Source of the DNA: Halococcus hamelinensis 100A6
GTDB lineage: Archaea; Halobacteriota; Halobacteria; Halobacteriales; Halococcaceae
Length of the DNA: 43,371 bases
Assembly: GCF_000336675.1 (NCBI RefSeq)
Contig: NZ_AOMB01000011.1
Location: 19,848 to 63,218, forward strand
Reading direction: 5' to 3'
The notes beneath the pieces are model-generated. The model saw only the letters and a list, made by a program, of their open reading frames with translations. It did no database searches and was not told the origin of the DNA. Each line of letters starts with the position of its first letter. Position 1 is the stretch's first letter. This document shows, piece after piece, positions 208 to 29,087 of the stretch. The translations under genes and the position numbers were made by a program.

Positions 208-1152
208 TCACGCCGAGTTCGATGCGGCCCGAGCGCTCTTCCGCGCCGCCTCGACCGAGCGCCCCTCACGGACGACCGCGTCCACGAACAGCTCGCCCGC
301 CTTGTACGACGAGCGCACCATCGGCCCGCTGGCACAGTAGAGGAAATTCAACTCCGCCTCCGCGACCCGCCGCCACGTCTCGAACTTGTCGGGGTGGACG
401 TAGTCGGAGACGTCGAGGTGGCTCCGGGAGGGCTGGAGGTACTGGCCGAGGGTCACGACGTCGACGTCCGCTTCTCGCAGGTCCGAGAGGGTCTGGTAGA
501 CCTCGTGGTCGTACTCGCCGAGGCCGAGCATCACCGAGGTCTTGGTGTAGCCCTCGAAGGTGTCCGCCGCGTGTTCGAGCACCGACAGCGACTGCTCGTA
601 GCCCGCTCGGCGGTCGCGGACGGGCCACTGAAGTCGCGAGACGGTCTCGATGTTGTGGGCGATCACGTCCGGACCCGCCGCGATGATCTCGTCGACGAGG
701 TCGAGATCGCCACGGAAGTCGGGGATCAGGACCTCGACCAGGATCTCGGGGTCGCGTTCCTTGATCGCCGCGATGGTTCGCGCGAAGTGGGCCGCCCCCT
801 GGTCCGCGAGGTCGTCGCGGTCGACGGAGGTGAGCACCACGTAGTCGAGGCCGATCTCCGCGACCGCCGCCGCGACGTTCTCGGGTTCGTCGGGATCCAA
901 TTCACCCATCCCGCCGGTCTCGACGTCACAGAAGTTACAGCCGCGCGAGCACCGCTCGCCCATCAGCATGAACGTCGCGGTGCCGGGGCCCTCGCCCGCG
1001 CCCCCGGACCAGCACTCGCCCATGTTGGGGCAGTTGGCCTCCTCGCAGACGGTGTGGAGGTCGCGGTCTCGCAGGGTTCGTTTGATGTCGGTGAACCGCT
1101 CCCCCGACGGCGGGCGGCTCTTCAGCCAGCCGGGTTTTCGCGCGCGACTCAT
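208..1152 (-). CDS. lipA: Lipoyl synthase
   Basis: A 314-residue radical-SAM enzyme that inserts two sulfurs into protein-bound octanoyl groups to make the lipoyl cofactor of 2-oxoacid dehydrogenases and glycine cleavage. The auxiliary cluster motif is complete (C36, C41, C47; CX4CX5C), as is the SAM-cluster motif (C68, C72, C75; CX3CX2C). The C-terminal RSSY motif (about 280-283), which supplies a serine ligand to the auxiliary cluster, is present. I chose the ATG at 1152, preceded by GGAGGGACACCA. An upstream extension to 1236 adds residues not found in the family. The gene diverges from the MATE exporter. No lipB or lplA is visible, though the left edge is close. Confidence 0.95.
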   Translation of the reverse strand: MSRARKPGWLKSRPPSGERFTDIKRTLRDRDLHTVCEEANCPNMGECWSGGAGEGPGTATFMLMGERCSRGCNFCDVETGGMGELDPDEPENVAAAVAEIGLDYVVLTSVDRDDLADQGAAHFARTIAAIKERDPEILVEVLIPDFRGDLDLVDEIIAAGPDVIAHNIETVSRLQWPVRDRRAGYEQSLSVLEHAADTFEGYTKTSVMLGLGEYDHEVYQTLSDLREADVDVVTLGQYLQPSRSHLDVSDYVHPDKFETWRRVAEAELNFLYCASGPMVRSSYKAGELFVDAVVREGRSVEAARKSARAASNSA

Positions 1153-1277
1153 TGGTGTCCCTCCGGGTCGCGTCGGCAAAAGGGTGGGGTTCGCCGTCAC
1201 GAGGCCGACCGAACCCGCCCTTCCGTCGCGGCACACACCCGAATCCGGACCTCCGTTCCATCCGGAGATACGAATGA

Positions 1278-1285
1278 TTAATTAC
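1278..1285 (+). promoter_or_regulatory. TATA box of the MATE exporter gene
   Basis: TTAATTAC lies about 26 bases before the GTG start at 1308, in a locally AT-rich patch of an otherwise GC-rich region. The spacing predicts an mRNA with almost no leader. Confidence 0.5.
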
Positions 1286-1307
1286 CATTACATTTCAACG
1301 ACGTTCC

Positions 1308-2711
1308 GTGCTCGACCTCTCCTCCGAGGAGATAACCCAGGGGTCGCTGACGCGGGCGCTGGTCGTGCTCGCGACCCCGCTGTTGGTCCAGAACCTCGTG
1401 CAGGTCGTCCAGCAGGTGGTCGACCTCTTCTTCCTCGGACGGCTGAGTTCGGCCGCGGTCGCCGCGGTGGGGCTCTCGCTCCCGGTCCTCGCGCTGTGCT
1501 TCGCGCTCGTGATCACGCTCCCGTTCGTCGGCACCCAGATCCTCGTCTCCCAGCGCGTCGGCGGCGAGGACGTCTCCGGGGCACGCCGGGCCGCCGCGAC
1601 CGGGCTCGGGGTCGCGGTGGCGCTCGGGGTCGTCGGGGGGCTCGTCCTCTGGGTCGGGGCGCGCCCGCTCGTCGACCTCCTCACGCGGGTCCAGCCGGGC
1701 GGGGCGAACGTCACGGCGCTCGCGACGGTCTACCTCTCGGTGCTCGCGGTCGGCCTGCCGGCGGCGGCCGCGAGCGACGCGATCGAGGCGGCGTTCGTCG
1801 GCTGGGGCGACTCGCGCGCGCCGCTCTACGTCTCGGTCGCCACGGTCGCCACCAATCTCGTGCTCGACCCGGTCCTGATCTTCGGGCTCGGGCCGGCCCC
1901 CGCGCTCGGGGTAGAGGGCGCGGCGCTCGCGACGGTCGCGGGCTACGTCGCCGGCTTCCTGCTCGCGGCTGGTCTCGCGCTCGCCGGCCGCGACGGCTGG
2001 GTCTACACCCGGGCGACCGCCCGGTTCGAGGCCGACGACCTCCGTGAGCTGTTCGACGTCGGCGCGCCGATCGCCGGACAGGGTGCCGTGCGTCAGGTCG
2101 TTCGGGTCCTGATCGTCACGGTGGCGTTCGCGGCGGGCGGCACGGCAGGGCTCGCGGCGTACTCCATCGGCGGCCGAGTCGCGTCGGTCGCCTTCGTGCC
2201 CGCCCTCGGCCTCCAGCAGGCCGCCCAGAGCGTCGTCGGGCAGAACCTCGGTGCCGCAAAGCCCGACCGTGCCGAACGAGCGACCTATCTCGGTGTCGGG
2301 CTCGCCGCCGGCGGACTCGCGGTCATCGGTGCCGTCCAGTGGCTCTTCCCGGTCCCGGTCGCCACCCTGTTCGCGCCGGCGTTCACCGACCGCGCGCTCT
2401 CGCTTTCGGTCTCGTACCTCGAGATCCTCGCCTACGGCTATCCCGCCATCGGCGTCGCCTACCTCTTCGAGGCGGGCTTCAACGGCGCGCGCCGGACCCG
2501 TACCAGCCTCGTCGCCACGCTCGCCCAGTTCTGGGTCGTTCGGCTTCCGCTCGCCGCGGGCGCGGGGGTCGTGTTGGGGGCCGGCGTCGTCGCGGTGTTC
2601 TGGGCCGTGACGATATCGAACCTCGTCGTCGCCGTCGGTCTCTGGTTCTACTACCGTCGCGAGGTGGGCGACGGGATGCTCCAGCGGGCGAGCGAGCGCG
2701 CCAGCACCTGA
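1308..2711 (+). CDS. MATE-family multidrug/cation exporter
   Basis: A 467-residue polytopic membrane protein. Two homologous halves of hydrophobic segments are evident, starting with a TM segment at about 18-40 that contains the family's typical PLLVQNLVQVVQQVVDLFFL stretch. The second half opens near residue 245 with a similar gate region (GAPIAGQGAVRQVVRVLIV). MATE proteins exchange H+ or Na+ for drugs or organic cations across the cytoplasmic membrane; the substrate cannot be read from sequence. The start is the GTG at 1308, placed about 26 bases after a TATA-like element, so the message is probably leaderless. It is a single gene, divergent from lipA and convergent with the channel gene that follows. 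Confidence 0.9.
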   Translation: MLDLSSEEITQGSLTRALVVLATPLLVQNLVQVVQQVVDLFFLGRLSSAAVAAVGLSLPVLALCFALVITLPFVGTQILVSQRVGGEDVSGARRAAATGLGVAVALGVVGGLVLWVGARPLVDLLTRVQPGGANVTALATVYLSVLAVGLPAAAASDAIEAAFVGWGDSRAPLYVSVATVATNLVLDPVLIFGLGPAPALGVEGAALATVAGYVAGFLLAAGLALAGRDGWVYTRATARFEADDLRELFDVGAPIAGQGAVRQVVRVLIVTVAFAAGGTAGLAAYSIGGRVASVAFVPALGLQQAAQSVVGQNLGAAKPDRAERATYLGVGLAAGGLAVIGAVQWLFPVPVATLFAPAFTDRALSLSVSYLEILAYGYPAIGVAYLFEAGFNGARRTRTSLVATLAQFWVVRLPLAAGAGVVLGAGVVAVFWAVTISNLVVAVGLWFYYRREVGDGMLQRASERAST

Positions 2712-2731
2712 CCGGCGGCCGAACGGGCGTT

Positions 2732-4411
2732 TCACTCGTCGGGAAGACGTCGAAGCCGTTCGTCGGTCCCCGCGACGACGAGCGTGTCGCTGTCGGCGAT
2801 CTCGATGGTGTCGTCGGTCAGGAACTCCCCGTCGCGTTCGAGACCCACGCCCACCCACTCCTGGTTGGCGTTCCGCTGGATCTCCCCGAGGTCCTGTCCG
2901 ACGAACTCGTCGCTTTCGACCCTGGCGAACCGTATCTGCCCGATCGGGTGCACCACCGGCTCCCGGTGGGCCTCGGCGGCGAGCAGTCGTGCGATCGTTC
3001 GTCGCTCGGAGAGCACGTAGTCCGCCCCCGCGTCGAACCCCTTCGCCACGTCCTCCGCGTTGGTCACCCGAACCAGGATGTCGATCTCCTCGGCCATCGA
3101 CCGGCCGACCGCCGTGGCGAGCAACGCGGTCTCGTCGTCGTCGACGGCCACGACGAGCGCCGTCGCGTCCTCGATACCGGCCTCCGCGAGCACGGGCCCG
3201 TCGCTCGCGTTCCCCACCACGTCCGCCCCCGTGCTCTCGTCCACGTCGATGGTGGTGACGTCGACCTCGTCCGGGAAGTGTTCCGTGACCGCCGTTCCCG
3301 CCTCGCCGAGTCCGGCGACCACGACACTGTCGTACGTCGTCAGCGACCGGAACCCGTCGTCCTCGTCGTGAATCCCCTCGAAAGCGGCTTCGGGTCCGAC
3401 GACCACGAGCACCGAGTTCGGCGAGAGCCGTTCGGACGACCGGGGTGGAAGCCGTAGCTCACCGTCGATCCACGCTCCGACCAGCGTCAGGTCCGGGTTC
3501 GCCACGATGGGCGTGTCCTCGACCCGCGCCCCGGCGAGCGGTCCGTCGTGGCGGACGACCAGTTCCCGAACCACGGTCCCGTCGCCGATGGCGTCGGCCG
3601 CGGTCGCGAACGTCGCCGTCGCCGTCGCCTTCTCGGCCAACTGGCGGCCGATGAGCGACGGGACGCAGACCACCCGGTCCACCCCGACCTGTTCGAGCGC
3701 GTCCTGCCGGTCGGGGGTTTCGGTGAGCGAGAGCACCCGCACGTCGTCGTTGCACTGGTAAGCCGTCAGCGCGACGCTCGCGTTGCGCGCCCGTGCGTCC
3801 GTGACGACCAACGCCGCGTCCTCGACCCCGGCCCGTCGGAGCGTCTCCGTCCTCGTCGGGTCGCCGTCGATGACCTGGTAGTCGCGGTTCGAGAGGTCGA
3901 TGGCCTCCTCCTTGTCGGGGTCGACCAGGACGTAGTCGATCCCCGAGGCCTCGAACTCGTCGAGCAGCACGTCCTTCCCCCGGCCGTACTCACAGACCAC
4001 GACGTGGTCGTCCTTGGTGGTCAGACGGTCGTCGAGCACCACCGGGGCGCGCTCGAACAGCGGGATGATGAGGATCCGCAGCGTCACGAGCCCGATGAGC
4101 ACGCCGGATATCTGATACCAGATGATGAGGAGGTTCATGTACGGCGTCACCCACGGTGCGCCGGCCCCGTAGCCGGTGGTCGTCATCGTCTCGACCACCG
4201 TCTGGAGCGCACGGAAGATCGTGATGTCGTCGCCTTCGAGGGTCCGCATTCCGGCCTGGTAGATGACGGCGTAGCTGACGAGCACCGAGACGAGCACCAC
4301 GATATACTTCACCACGGTCCGCTGTCGGTTGGTGAGGTCCTCGAGCGAACTCACCGACCGGAGCTGGCGGAGCTGTTGTTCGAGCGGTCCCTGTGGCTTC
4401 TCGGAACTCAT
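2732..4411 (-). CDS. K+ channel-like protein with two RCK (TrkA-N/TrkA-C) modules
   Basis: A 559-residue protein. Order: cytoplasmic N-terminus, TM1 (about 33-56), pore loop with TTTGYGAG (filter core TGYG), TM2 (about 92-118), then RCK1 (TrkA-N about 130-250, TrkA-C about 270-345) and RCK2 (about 360-475 and 480-559). This is the two-TM, MthK-like plan, but with a tandem RCK pair on one chain. The first Rossmann motif is degenerate (VVCEYGRGKD in place of GxGxxG), whereas the second keeps GLGEAG. It probably conducts or regulates K+ for osmotic balance, gated by a nucleotide or ion at RCK2; the ligand is inference. It diverges from the DxDxDG membrane protein at 4500 with an 88-base shared promoter region. 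Confidence 0.9.
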   Translation of the reverse strand: MSSEKPQGPLEQQLRQLRSVSSLEDLTNRQRTVVKYIVVLVSVLVSYAVIYQAGMRTLEGDDITIFRALQTVVETMTTTGYGAGAPWVTPYMNLLIIWYQISGVLIGLVTLRILIIPLFERAPVVLDDRLTTKDDHVVVCEYGRGKDVLLDEFEASGIDYVLVDPDKEEAIDLSNRDYQVIDGDPTRTETLRRAGVEDAALVVTDARARNASVALTAYQCNDDVRVLSLTETPDRQDALEQVGVDRVVCVPSLIGRQLAEKATATATFATAADAIGDGTVVRELVVRHDGPLAGARVEDTPIVANPDLTLVGAWIDGELRLPPRSSERLSPNSVLVVVGPEAAFEGIHDEDDGFRSLTTYDSVVVAGLGEAGTAVTEHFPDEVDVTTIDVDESTGADVVGNASDGPVLAEAGIEDATALVVAVDDDETALLATAVGRSMAEEIDILVRVTNAEDVAKGFDAGADYVLSERRTIARLLAAEAHREPVVHPIGQIRFARVESDEFVGQDLGEIQRNANQEWVGVGLERDGEFLTDDTIEIADSDTLVVAGTDERLRRLPDE

Positions 4412-4499
4412 TCAGTTTGGGTGCTCGCGTGGCCCCCATGAGGCTTTGGCTTGTCCGTGCGGTGGATAGACTGATACCGCTCTCGGCACAATCGCCGCC

Positions 4500-5006
4500 A
4501 TGTCCGCGCCAGTGGCGACCATCACCGACCGCGTCCGCGGGGCTTGGGAGTACTACCGGCGCTACACACTGCGGCGAACGGGCGTCCACGCTGGCGCGAC
4601 GGCGGCGCTCACCGTTCTCGGACTCCTCGCGTACTACGAGCGCTGGTTCGCCCTCGTGGCGATCGTCGCCTACCTGCTCCCACCGGTCTACCTCTATCTC
4701 ACCGGCGACGACCTCTCAGAACCCGAACCCCAACCGACGAACCCCGAACCCGCGACCGCGCCGAACGACCACGCCTCCAGCACCACTGGCGTGGTTCGGG
4801 ACGCCGACGTGGACTTCGACGGAGCCGACGCGGACTTCGACGGAGCCGACGCGGATTCCGATGGCTATGATGCGGACTTCGATGGAGCCGACGCGGATTT
4901 CGACGGGATCGATAGGGACTTCGACGGACACGACGCGGACTCCGACGGCGACACGGATTCGGATGGCGACGACGGGGATACGGACGGCGATTCCGACGGC
5001 GACTGA
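4500..5006 (+). CDS. Small membrane protein with acidic DxDxDG repeat tail
   Basis: A 168-residue protein of unrecognised family. Residues about 28-68 form two adjacent hydrophobic segments, preceded by a basic N-terminus (YYRRYTLRRTG). From about residue 100 to the end the chain is a tandem heptad of the type DADFDGA, decaying into SDGDTDGD. The heptad is encoded by an imperfect 21-bp minisatellite. Each unit fits DxDxDG, the oxygen-rich loop of EF-hand, dockerin and thrombospondin-3 calcium sites. No function is known to me; a divalent-cation-binding tail anchored in the membrane is inference. The nearest neighbour is the divergent potassium-channel gene. The repetitive tail may vary in copy number between strains. 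It could alternatively be simple halophilic acidic low complexity. Confidence 0.75.
   Translation: MSAPVATITDRVRGAWEYYRRYTLRRTGVHAGATAALTVLGLLAYYERWFALVAIVAYLLPPVYLYLTGDDLSEPEPQPTNPEPATAPNDHASSTTGVVRDADVDFDGADADFDGADADSDGYDADFDGADADFDGIDRDFDGHDADSDGDTDSDGDDGDTDGDSDGD
4802..5003 (+). repeat. 21-bp coding minisatellite (DADFDGA units)
   Basis: At least seven tandem units of about 21 bp with core GACTTCGACGGAGCCGACGC. The first two units are identical at most positions and later ones decay. It lies wholly inside the open frame and keeps phase, so length changes would alter the protein tail without frameshift. Confidence 0.85.
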
Positions 5007-5197
5007 ACCGCTGCCGGACCGTGCGGACGATCGCGGGCGGTCCACGATGCGGGAGAAGAAACGCCTTTGTCGGCCCCACCCCCAGTATCGTTTCACGTGA
5101 TCACCGTCGTTTCGTCCGACCCGCGAGGACCGGCGCGGACCCGCCTCACGAGGTTGACCCCGTGAGCACCGTTGCGTCACTGCGTTCGCAACGAACG

Positions 5198-5229
5198 CAC
5201 GAAACCCACCGCCGGCGGTGGGTTTCGTG
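5198..5229. promoter_or_regulatory. Perfect 32-bp palindrome over the helicase start codon
   Basis: The half site CACGAAACCCACCGCC is followed directly by its exact reverse complement. The right arm contains both candidate GTG starts of the helicase gene (5218, 5227). It could be an operator for a dimeric regulator or, in RNA, a hairpin hiding the start codon. The flank (GCGTTCGCAACGAACGC, 5182-5198) is a second shorter dyad. Confidence 0.8.
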
Positions 5230-7554
5230 AGCGTCGCCGAGACGGTCCCCGAGTTCGCCGACGCGTTCGCCTTCGAGGAGTTCAATCGGATGCAGCGCGA
5301 GGCGTTGCCCGCGATCCTCGAACGCGAGGAGAACGTCGTCGCCAGCGCGCCGACGGCCTCGGGCAAGACCGCCCTCGCCGAGCTCGCGATCTGCAAGTGC
5401 CTCCGGACCGGCGGGACGGCCCTCTTCATCGCGCCGCTGCGCGCGCTCACCAACGAGAAGGAGTCCGAGTGGGAGCGCTTCGAGTCGATGGGCTACTCGG
5501 TCTACGTCGTCACCGGCGAACGCGACCTGGTCCCGCACCGCGCCGAGCGGGCCGACATCCTCGTGATGACCCCCGAGAAGGTCGACTCCGCGACGCGGAA
5601 ACACGACTCCCCCAGATACGGCTTCATCACCGACGTCTCGTGCTGTGTGATCGACGAGGTCCACCTCCTCGACTCCGAGAAACGGGGGAGCGTGCTCGAA
5701 GTCACCATCTCCCGGCTCCGGCGGCTCTGTGACCCCCGCGTGGTGGCGCTCTCGGCCACGATGCCCAACGTGGGCGACATCGCCGACTGGCTCGACGCTC
5801 CCCCCGAGACGACCTTCGACTTCGGCGACGAGTATCGACCCGTCGACCTCGAATCGGGCGTCCGGACCTACACCCACGGCGAGAACGCCTTCGCCGACAA
5901 GTACCGTCGCCTCTATCGCGCGCTCGACCTCGCCGAGGACCACATCCGGGAAGAGGGTCAGGCGCTCGTGTTCGTGGCCTCGCGCCAAGACACCGTTAGG
6001 GCGGCCGAGAAGGCCCGCGACGAACTCGCCTCACGGGACGTGCCGATGGGCGCGCGCGGCGACTACGATTTCCACACCGAAAGCCAGGTCCTCGAGAACC
6101 AGACCCTCCGGAACTCCGTGCTCGACGGCGTGGCCTTCCATCACGCGGGTCTCTCGAAGTCCGATAAGGACCACGTCGAGGAGTGGTTCCGCGAGGGAAA
6201 GGTGCAGCTCCTCTTTTCGACCTCGACGCTCGCGTGGGGGGTGAATTTGCCTGCTCGGTGTGTCGTGATCCGTGATACGAAGTACCACGACCCCCTGGAG
6301 GGGGAAGTCGACATGAGCCCGCTCGACGTGCTCCAGATGCTCGGGCGCGCGGGTCGACCGGGCTACGACGACGCGGGCTACGCCTACGTCGTCTGTGACG
6401 CCGCCGACGCCGACAAGTACCGGAAACTCCTCCGTGACGGCAAGGAGATCGACTCCCACCTCGCCGCGGACCTCGACACCCACCTCAACGCCGAGATCGC
6501 GATGGGCACGATCCGGGACGTGGGCGACGTGATGGACTGGCTCGAAACCACCTTCGGGTTCGTCCGCGCGAAGAACAACCACGTGACCGACGCGGTCGAG
6601 ACCCTCCGCGAGGCGGTCCGTGAGACCCTCTCCGAACTCCGGGACCGTGGGTTCATCGAGACGGACGACCTCGACGTCGCCGCGACGCCGCTCGGCACCC
6701 TGACCTCGTCGTACTACCTCCGGCTGCCGACCGCCCGCCGGTTCTTCGACCTCGCGGGGACCGGCCCCAGTGTTCGAGCGATCCTCGAAACCGTCGCCCG
6801 GAGCACGGAGTTCGACAGCGTCAACGCCCGCCGTGCCGAACGCGACGCCATCGCGGGGGTGCTCGGCTCCGGTGACGACCTCGATTCGGGCCCGCGGAAG
6901 GTGCTCGCGATCCTCGAATCCAGCACCCGTGGCTCGACCCCCGCCGAACTCCGGAGCGACGCGTGGGTCATCCGCCAGAACGCGCTCCGGTTGCTCGCCG
7001 CACTCGGGGCCTTCCTCGACCGTTTCGGGTCGGCCTGGGAGGCCAACCGGGCGTGTCGCGTCGCGGCACGCATCGAGAACGGCGTCGGCGAGGACGCGGC
7101 CGCGCTCACCGCCATCGACGGCGTCGGGCCGGGCCGGGCGAGCAAACTCGCGAGCTCGGGGATCGAGACCCCGGCGGACGTCGTCTCGGCCGGGGTCGAC
7201 GAACTCGTCGAGGTCGGGCTCTCGGAGGGGGTCGCCGAGCGGGTGGTCGAGCGTGCGCGCGCCCTTCCCGCGCTCGACATCGACTGGGGGGCCTTCCCCG
7301 AGCGGATCGCGCGCGGCGAGAACGACCTGTGTGAGGTCACCGTCGAGAACCGGGGCGAGGGTGCGCGGGCCGGCCTCCGGGTGACGGTCAACGACACCCA
7401 GATGACCGAGACCGCGTCGTTTCTGGGGACCGAGACCCTCCCCGCGCCGGTCTTCGGCGGCGACCCCGACACCCTCACGTTCGCCGTCGAGGTCGTCTTT
7501 CCCGACCTGCCGCTCCCGCCAGTTACGGAGACGAGAACCGTCTGGGTGGATTGA
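5227..7554 (+). CDS. Ski2/Hel308-like DEAD-box helicase with Brr2-type C-terminus
   Basis: A 775-residue ATP-dependent superfamily 2 helicase. Walker A APTASGKT is at 41-48, motif II DEVH at 143-146, SAT at 176-178, and motif VI QMLGRAGRPG at about 370-379. After the winged-helix and ratchet region come a helix-hairpin-helix (about 628-680, AIDGVGPGRASKLA) and a C-terminal beta-rich domain (about 690-775). That last order (helical, HhH, Ig-like) is the Sec63 module of Brr2, and goes beyond plain Hel308. The substrate may be stalled replication forks or structured RNA; not decidable here. The start is GTG at 5227 (MSVAETVPEF) or 5218, both inside a palindrome. A dispersed repeat follows the stop. 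Confidence 0.88.
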   Translation: MSVAETVPEFADAFAFEEFNRMQREALPAILEREENVVASAPTASGKTALAELAICKCLRTGGTALFIAPLRALTNEKESEWERFESMGYSVYVVTGERDLVPHRAERADILVMTPEKVDSATRKHDSPRYGFITDVSCCVIDEVHLLDSEKRGSVLEVTISRLRRLCDPRVVALSATMPNVGDIADWLDAPPETTFDFGDEYRPVDLESGVRTYTHGENAFADKYRRLYRALDLAEDHIREEGQALVFVASRQDTVRAAEKARDELASRDVPMGARGDYDFHTESQVLENQTLRNSVLDGVAFHHAGLSKSDKDHVEEWFREGKVQLLFSTSTLAWGVNLPARCVVIRDTKYHDPLEGEVDMSPLDVLQMLGRAGRPGYDDAGYAYVVCDAADADKYRKLLRDGKEIDSHLAADLDTHLNAEIAMGTIRDVGDVMDWLETTFGFVRAKNNHVTDAVETLREAVRETLSELRDRGFIETDDLDVAATPLGTLTSSYYLRLPTARRFFDLAGTGPSVRAILETVARSTEFDSVNARRAERDAIAGVLGSGDDLDSGPRKVLAILESSTRGSTPAELRSDAWVIRQNALRLLAALGAFLDRFGSAWEANRACRVAARIENGVGEDAAALTAIDGVGPGRASKLASSGIETPADVVSAGVDELVEVGLSEGVAERVVERARALPALDIDWGAFPERIARGENDLCEVTVENRGEGARAGLRVTVNDTQMTETASFLGTETLPAPVFGGDPDTLTFAVEVVFPDLPLPPVTETRTVWVD

Positions 7555-23454: not shown

Positions 23455-24929
<1,475 letters not shown>

Positions 24930-25086: not shown

Positions 25087-25158
25087 GGGCCCATAGCTCA
25101 GTGGGAGAGTGCCTCCTTTGCAAGGAGGATGCCCTGGGTTCGAATCCCAGTGGGTCCA
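25087..25158 (+). tRNA. tRNA-Ala (TGC)
   Basis: A 72-base cloverleaf in the 16S-23S spacer. The acceptor GGGCCCA pairs with TGGGTCC, the anticodon loop is TTTGCAA with anticodon TGC, the T-arm is CTGGGTTCGAATCCCAG and the discriminator is A. This is the standard euryarchaeal spacer tRNA; no intron and no encoded CCA. Confidence 0.97.
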
Positions 25159-25363: not shown

Positions 25364-25369
25364 AAGACC

Positions 25370-28294
<2,925 letters not shown>

Positions 28295-28304
28295 AGTCAT
28301 ATCG

Positions 28305-28432: not shown

Positions 28433-28663
28433 TTAAGGCGGCCACAGCGGCGGGGCGACTCCCGTACCCATCCCGAACACGGCAGATAAGCCCGCCAGCG
28501 TTCCAACGAGTACTGGAGTGCGCGAGCCTCTGGGAAAATTGCCTCGCAAGAGGGGCCAAGTACGAGCCCAGGAACGCAATCGGTAGTACACGCAGGGTCC
28601 GTCCCGGTGGAACCCGAGACCGTTCCGTTACAACGGCTCGCAACTGGTGGTTCGCCGCCTCCC
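28433..28663 (+). rRNA. rrf: 5S ribosomal RNA with 108-base insertion
   Basis: Starts TTAAGGCGGCC and runs as a normal haloarchaeal 5S (CCCGTACCCATCCCGAACAC, TACTGGAGTGCGCGAGCC) to GGGAAAATTG. It then departs from the family for 108 bases and resumes at GTTCGCCGCCT (28650-28660), which supplies the helix I 3' strand. Total length is about 231 against the usual 122 or so. The same 231-base form with a 108-base insert is known for Halococcus morrhuae. Ends are uncertain by about two bases. Confidence 0.93.
28542..28649 (+). other. 108-base insertion within 5S rRNA
   Basis: If removed, TTG joins GTTCGCCGCC and the helix CCAA/TTGG plus helix I are restored. The insert opens with the hairpin CCTC-GCAA-GAGG (a GNRA tetraloop) and holds a second likely hairpin CCGT-TACA-ACGG (28625-28636). 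Boundaries are ambiguous by a base because G occurs on both sides. Confidence 0.88.
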
Positions 28664-28778: not shown

Positions 28779-28854
28779 GCCAAGGTGGCAGAGTCCGGCC
28801 TAACGCAGCGGCCTGCAGAGCCGCCCATCGCCGGTTCAAATCCGGCCCTTGGCT
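28779..28854 (+). tRNA. tRNA-Cys (GCA)
   Basis: A 76-base cloverleaf. Acceptor GCCAAGG pairs with CCTTGGC, discriminator T as expected for Cys. The anticodon loop CTGCAGA sits on GCGGC/GCCGC and reads GCA. The T-arm is GCCGGTTCAAATCCGGC. It is the distal tRNA of the rRNA operon, as usual in haloarchaea. Confidence 0.97.
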
Positions 28855-28932
28855 TTCTGCTGTGAGCACGTACGCGAACAGCGGAAGCCACGCCGATTCG
28901 AATCACGAGAGGGGAACGAAGTGAGCCTCTCT

Positions 28933-28958
28933 CCGGTTCAAATCCGGCCCTTGGCTTC
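28933..28958 (+). repeat. Duplicate of tRNA-Cys 3' end (att-like)
   Basis: CCGGTTCAAATCCGGCCCTT followed by GGCTTC repeats 26 bases of the tRNA-Cys T-arm and acceptor (28831-28856, allowing one base in the T run), 102 bases downstream in the same orientation. An inverted repeat GAGAGG/CCTCTC (28911-28935) directly precedes it. Confidence 0.85.
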
Positions 28959-29087
28959 CTTCGACCCATTTTCCGTTCCAGTTCGCTTCGTAGCGACTGT
29001 GTCCCGCTGATCGTCCGTCGGGGTGACTGCTCCGGAACCATCGGATAGCGGAGCGGCCACGAATATCCATCTCACGAAAAGCAACGA

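Follow-up and report, generated by a model that had tools for sequence, protein, structure and literature searches.

What becomes of 108 bases that interrupt the core of a 5S rRNA gene, and what do they do if they remain in the RNA? An rRNA operon of Halococcus hamelinensis 100A6 raises this question, and we analysed the whole 43,371-nt stretch that holds it (NZ_AOMB01000011.1, positions 19,848 to 63,218 of the forward strand), here called the window. An insert in Halococcus 5S rRNA is already known, since 1981, and what its arm does has been a question for four decades, which a fold supported by covariation and a conserved 28-nt tip now make concrete. The insert is very probably a retained rRNA expansion segment, present in the mature 5S, its tip most likely contacting a ribosome-associated partner.

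An expanded 5S rRNA gene in an rRNA operon of ordinary order

The window contains one rRNA operon in the ordinary order 16S-Ala-23S-5S-Cys:

23455..24929, + strand: 16S rRNA, same operon as the expanded 5S
25087-25158: tRNA-Ala, same operon
25365..28296, + strand: 23S rRNA, same operon
28433..28663, + strand: expanded 5S rRNA gene, 231 nt; Rfam RF00001 match from 28434, borders modelled on those of H. morrhuae DSM 1307, 66311-66541 (PMC7812874)
28542..28649, + strand: 108-nt expansion segment at core positions 104/105; placed from the sequence, homologous inserts and a covariance model, borders ambiguous by 1 nt
28779-28854: tRNA-Cys, same operon

On reading the sequence, the uninterrupted 5S core ends GGGAAAATTG at 28541 and GTTCGCCGCC resumes at 28650, with 108 nt (28542-28649) between both core parts; the insert borders may shift by 1 nt (28541-28648), because the insert ends in G and is itself preceded by G. 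The initial annotation, made from the sequence letters and open reading frames, had placed a 108-base insertion at exactly these positions, which is confirmed, and homologous inserts occupy the same site in independent genomes. Its observation that removal of the insert restores a 5S of about 123 nt with CCAA/TTGG pairing was likewise borne out, since the gene without the insert measures 123 nt and helix V is re-formed. The helix itself had been misassigned: the insert was put in helix I and actually lies inside helix V, at core positions 104.1 / 105, the site of the Halococcus type.

The Rfam RF00001 match to the 5S gene spans 28434-28552 (69.8 bits), its 3' end being falsely placed within the insert (28542-28552), an error described as a misannotation in all archaeal cases (PMC7812874). 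From this 3' end, automated annotation here yields a false 119-nt 5S. In H. morrhuae DSM 1307 (NZ_AOMC01000054.1), from which the gene borders were transferred, the Rfam 5S match begins at 66312.

Identification with the known Halococcus insert holds. H. morrhuae (Luehrsen et al. 1981; PMC7530397; PMC7812874) belongs to the same genus and has the same site, a 108-nt insert and a 231-nt gene, and the insert of strain DSM 1307 is 94% identical to that of the window over positions 1-108 by BLAST. The two differ by few substitutions (6.5%) and in that the 231-nt RNA was directly shown in H. morrhuae, whereas the expanded 5S of H. hamelinensis is known from its gene.

The expanded gene is the one 5S match in the H. 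hamelinensis draft genome (3.42 Mb in 46 contigs, 96.4% complete, with collapsed or missing copies possible), and the second, ordinary 5S gene named in the initial annotation as a possible objection was not found in this draft. Further along the operon, the 3' end of tRNA-Cys (28823-28858) is repeated 102 nt downstream at 28925-28960 (36 nt, 89% identity), a pattern that an integrating element, or duplication of part of the tRNA, could leave behind.

Covariation supports a hairpin and a long arm

The insert folds into a conserved, covariation-supported shape that consists of a hairpin and a long arm, the latter topped by a loop-E-like motif with a hairpin tip:

28503..28506, + strand: 5' strand of helix V, CCAA; pairs with 28539-28541 (TTG) and G28650, which flank the insert
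28542..28553, + strand: insert hairpin 1, CCTC-GCAA-GAGG; 4 pairs with 100% of cells paired, double-sided changes in 2
28556..28567, + strand: 5' strand of the long arm's basal helix; partner 28636-28647, 11 pairs, 7 with double-sided changes
28571..28576, + strand: 5' strand of the middle helix; partner 28621-28626, 6 pairs with 100% of cells paired, double-sided changes in 4
28580..28583, + strand: 5' strand of the upper helix; partner 28614-28617, 4 pairs with 100% of cells paired, double-sided changes in all 4
28585..28612, + strand: loop-E-like AGUA/GAA element (28585-28588 / 28610-28612) and hairpin tip (28589-28609); from conservation, loop E named from sequence

The 28 different expanded 5S sequences compared had 95.4% of cells paired, and double-sided changes occurred in 18 of 36 pairs. 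Cells with double-sided changes numbered 138; shuffles gave 50.7 (sd 6.6) and slid controls no more than 34, the latter being the better guide because shuffles ignore relatedness. Helix V pairing across the insert is also kept among carriers, with CCAG/CTGG and CCAU/AUGG variants. Free-energy folding of the isolated insert agreed with the covariation fold, at an energy weakly below that of shuffles (z -1.67), and an energy-only fold of the whole 231-nt gene was discarded with its 5S core misfolded; because of this misfolding, we take covariation rather than energy as the evidence for the fold. The structure is of the same secondary structure type as the Halococcus-type archaeal expanded 5S.

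A covariance model of the insert returned 144 bits at the window copy (which was included in training) and 10.6 bits at the next match in the window. On the basis of this difference, and of the homologous inserts at the same site in independent genomes, the insert is not a product of chance. The CCTC-GCAA-GAGG hairpin at 28542-28553 that had been noticed earlier is real; the accompanying idea of a tertiary contact, in the form of a conserved GNRA interaction, is not supported because the loop sequence changes from lineage to lineage (GCAA, GAGA and others, e.g. AUUA).

Expected retention of the insert in the mature 5S rRNA

Introns can account for inserts in the rRNA genes of archaea, and the normal 5S restored on removal of this insert is in keeping with an intervening sequence that is absent from the mature RNA. 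This is contradicted in H. morrhuae, whose mature RNA keeps the insert: in the part of PMC7812874 that cites Luehrsen 1981, direct sequencing is credited with a 231-nt 5S and no other 5S, the entire pool carrying the insert, rather than the mature form of about 122 bases that the initial annotation had associated with splicing. Cryo-EM moreover revealed density at the insert site, the insert being seen on the ribosome with a four-way junction and flexible protruding density (PMC7530397), and inspection of the covariation-supported fold, with its hairpin and long arm at a four-way junction, disclosed no evident bulge-helix-bulge. We therefore consider an intron very improbable. Since retention has been shown in the homologous H. 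morrhuae, the insert is expected, by homology, to be retained in the ribosome with a four-way junction in H. hamelinensis as well.

As a retained expansion segment, the insert would open helix V at one point and create a four-way junction of the helix below, the helix above, the short hairpin and the arm of ~94 nt, which would leave the canonical 5S fold undisturbed. The arm would stand out from the central protuberance, with a tip (loop-E-like motif and hairpin) that would most likely contact a candidate ribosome-associated partner, either rRNA or protein. Independent self-folding inserts in the 5S core also occur in Thermoanaerobacterium and other bacteria, at other sites (e.g. positions 52-53) and with other lengths than here, and these bacterial types are treated as independent in origin (PMC7812874).

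Distribution of the insert in Halobacteria

BLAST searches of 391 Halobacteria genomes with the insert revealed 32 carriers and a covariance-model search 33 carrier genomes, in 10 of 86 sampled Halobacteria genera, both searches favouring inserts with the usual tip. Halocatena and Halorutilus are among these ten genera. One genome of a carrier genus without a match (G305) has its 5S cut by a contig end. Because nine other sampled genera carry the insert, it is not specific to Halococcus, contrary to the initial annotation, which had taken it as a mark of that genus. By a pattern scan of named genomes, the carriers also comprise Halorutilus salinus (order Halorutilales), YIM 93972 (filed as Halocatena halophila, Natronomonadaceae), the MAGs Ods01 and Ods02 and several Halobacteriales MAGs. 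YIM 93972 has an expanded 5S on both its chromosomes. Among 393 genomes drawn from the phylum, no carriers outside Halobacteria were listed, and viral contigs contained no insert.

All 33 carrier genomes contain expanded 5S genes only, save for one partial match beside N in a Halococcus draft (G009). This draft, which matches H. thailandensis JCM 13552, has a partial tandem 5S adjoining N on contig C155 that looks like an assembly artefact.

A 2021 survey gave Halococcus, Halalkalicoccus, Halomarina and Halodesulfurarchaeum as the archaeal carriers and suggested transfer between them (PMC7812874). The inserts of the last three genera are homologous to the window insert (79-96% identity) and share its structural type and site (PMC7812874); in the Halomarina and Halodesulfurarchaeum genomes that we examined they measure 104-109 nt versus 108 nt here, and the hairpin loop of Halodesulfurarchaeum is unlike that of the window. 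Halorutilus, Halocatena and the Ods MAGs lie outside the four genera named in the text of that survey, and a literature search on Halorutilus/Actinoarchaeum 5S rRNA returned taxonomy only, with no report of an expanded 5S found. The carrier range thus appears to be wider than published, with at least ten Halobacteria genera and a breadth unreported in the literature searched, and it provides extra carriers (Halorutilus, Halocatena) for work on the function of the arm.

A conserved arm tip and its possible partner

Strong conservation in the insert falls on the tip at the far end of the long arm and not on the loop of hairpin 1. Among 22 distinct inserts, the mean entropy at the tip (insert positions 44-70) was 0.17 bits versus 0.5-1.13 in all other parts, and 16 of the 27 tip positions were invariant. 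The tip helix is unvarying in the 28 sequences and covariation is neutral there, neither for nor against; one piece of support for the helix comes from genome G375, in which the closing C-G of the tip is swapped for G-C and one base is lost. From its sequence we infer that the AGUA/GAA element around the tip is a loop-E motif, with inexact versions in some carriers (GAU, GAC or GGA on the 3' side) and no AGUA in genome G138. G375 and G138 represent two lineages with a diverged insert tip.

Judging from this conservation, we lean towards a tip that binds something. Counting against a partner-binding tip are the flexible distal arm (PMC7530397), the lack of a shared 23S column, the differing tips of G138 and G375, and the bias of both insert searches towards the usual tip. 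Cryo-EM indicates that the distal arm is not packed on the subunit, with faint density towards helix 38 that is maybe noise (PMC7530397). When 23S columns were compared between carriers and non-carriers, weak single columns separated the two, none of them common to all carrier clades, and no partner site for the tip was visible in 23S by this comparison.

The same flexibility in cryo-EM (PMC7530397) would suit a neutral, self-folding ornament on the ribosome surface that has no partner, as would the patchy distribution, most Halobacteria being without the insert; for some expansion segments, neutrality is left as a possibility in PMC7812874. Such an ornament is nonetheless unlikely in view of a tip with far higher conservation than the stems that carry it, common to two orders with inserts that are unlike at about 35-45% of positions overall, of a fold kept by compensatory changes, and of the finding that in no carrier genome does an ordinary 5S accompany the insert.

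Origin and descent of the insert

A retained expansion segment could in principle have arisen by duplication, as all or part of a second 5S that then degenerated. An AGUAC...GGAA motif is common to the insert and the 5S, both have a loop-E-like AGUA/GAA element, and pairwise insert-core scores exceeded shuffles in a few lineages. A profile-profile comparison, by contrast, scored 11.4 versus 11.9 (sd 1.8), a value reached by 86 of 150 shuffles and hence at chance, as was the window insert against its core, and the pairing topology of the insert differs from that of 5S. With the profile comparison not above chance, origin from a duplicated 5S is unsupported and we give it hardly any credence. 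Origin from the 16S or 23S of the operon was also rejected, with scores no higher than those of shuffles.

On a 23S tree in which some deep nodes are weakly supported, Halorutilales and f6 lie apart from the rest and carriers are scattered over several clades. Parsimony with a root lacking the insert requires 6 changes versus a single gain plus 7 losses, counts that are close. Insert distance correlates with 23S distance (r=0.71), and the inserts of Halococcus and Halalkalicoccus are unusually alike, differing by 4-10% at a 23S distance of ~0.24 versus ~20-35% for other pairs at that distance.

We tentatively propose, at somewhat less than even confidence, that the insert is old in Halobacteria, whether it preceded the Halorutilales split or spread with plasmid operons, and that its near-invariant, loop-E-capped tip may be a selected docking site for a putative ribosomal partner. 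Plasmid-borne rRNA operons offer a transfer route: Halococcus dombrowskii H4 has the insert on two plasmids, NZ_CP095007.1 (261 kb) and NZ_CP095009.1 (351 kb), and on the former we verified a complete 16S-23S-5S operon with an expanded 5S at 920-6108.
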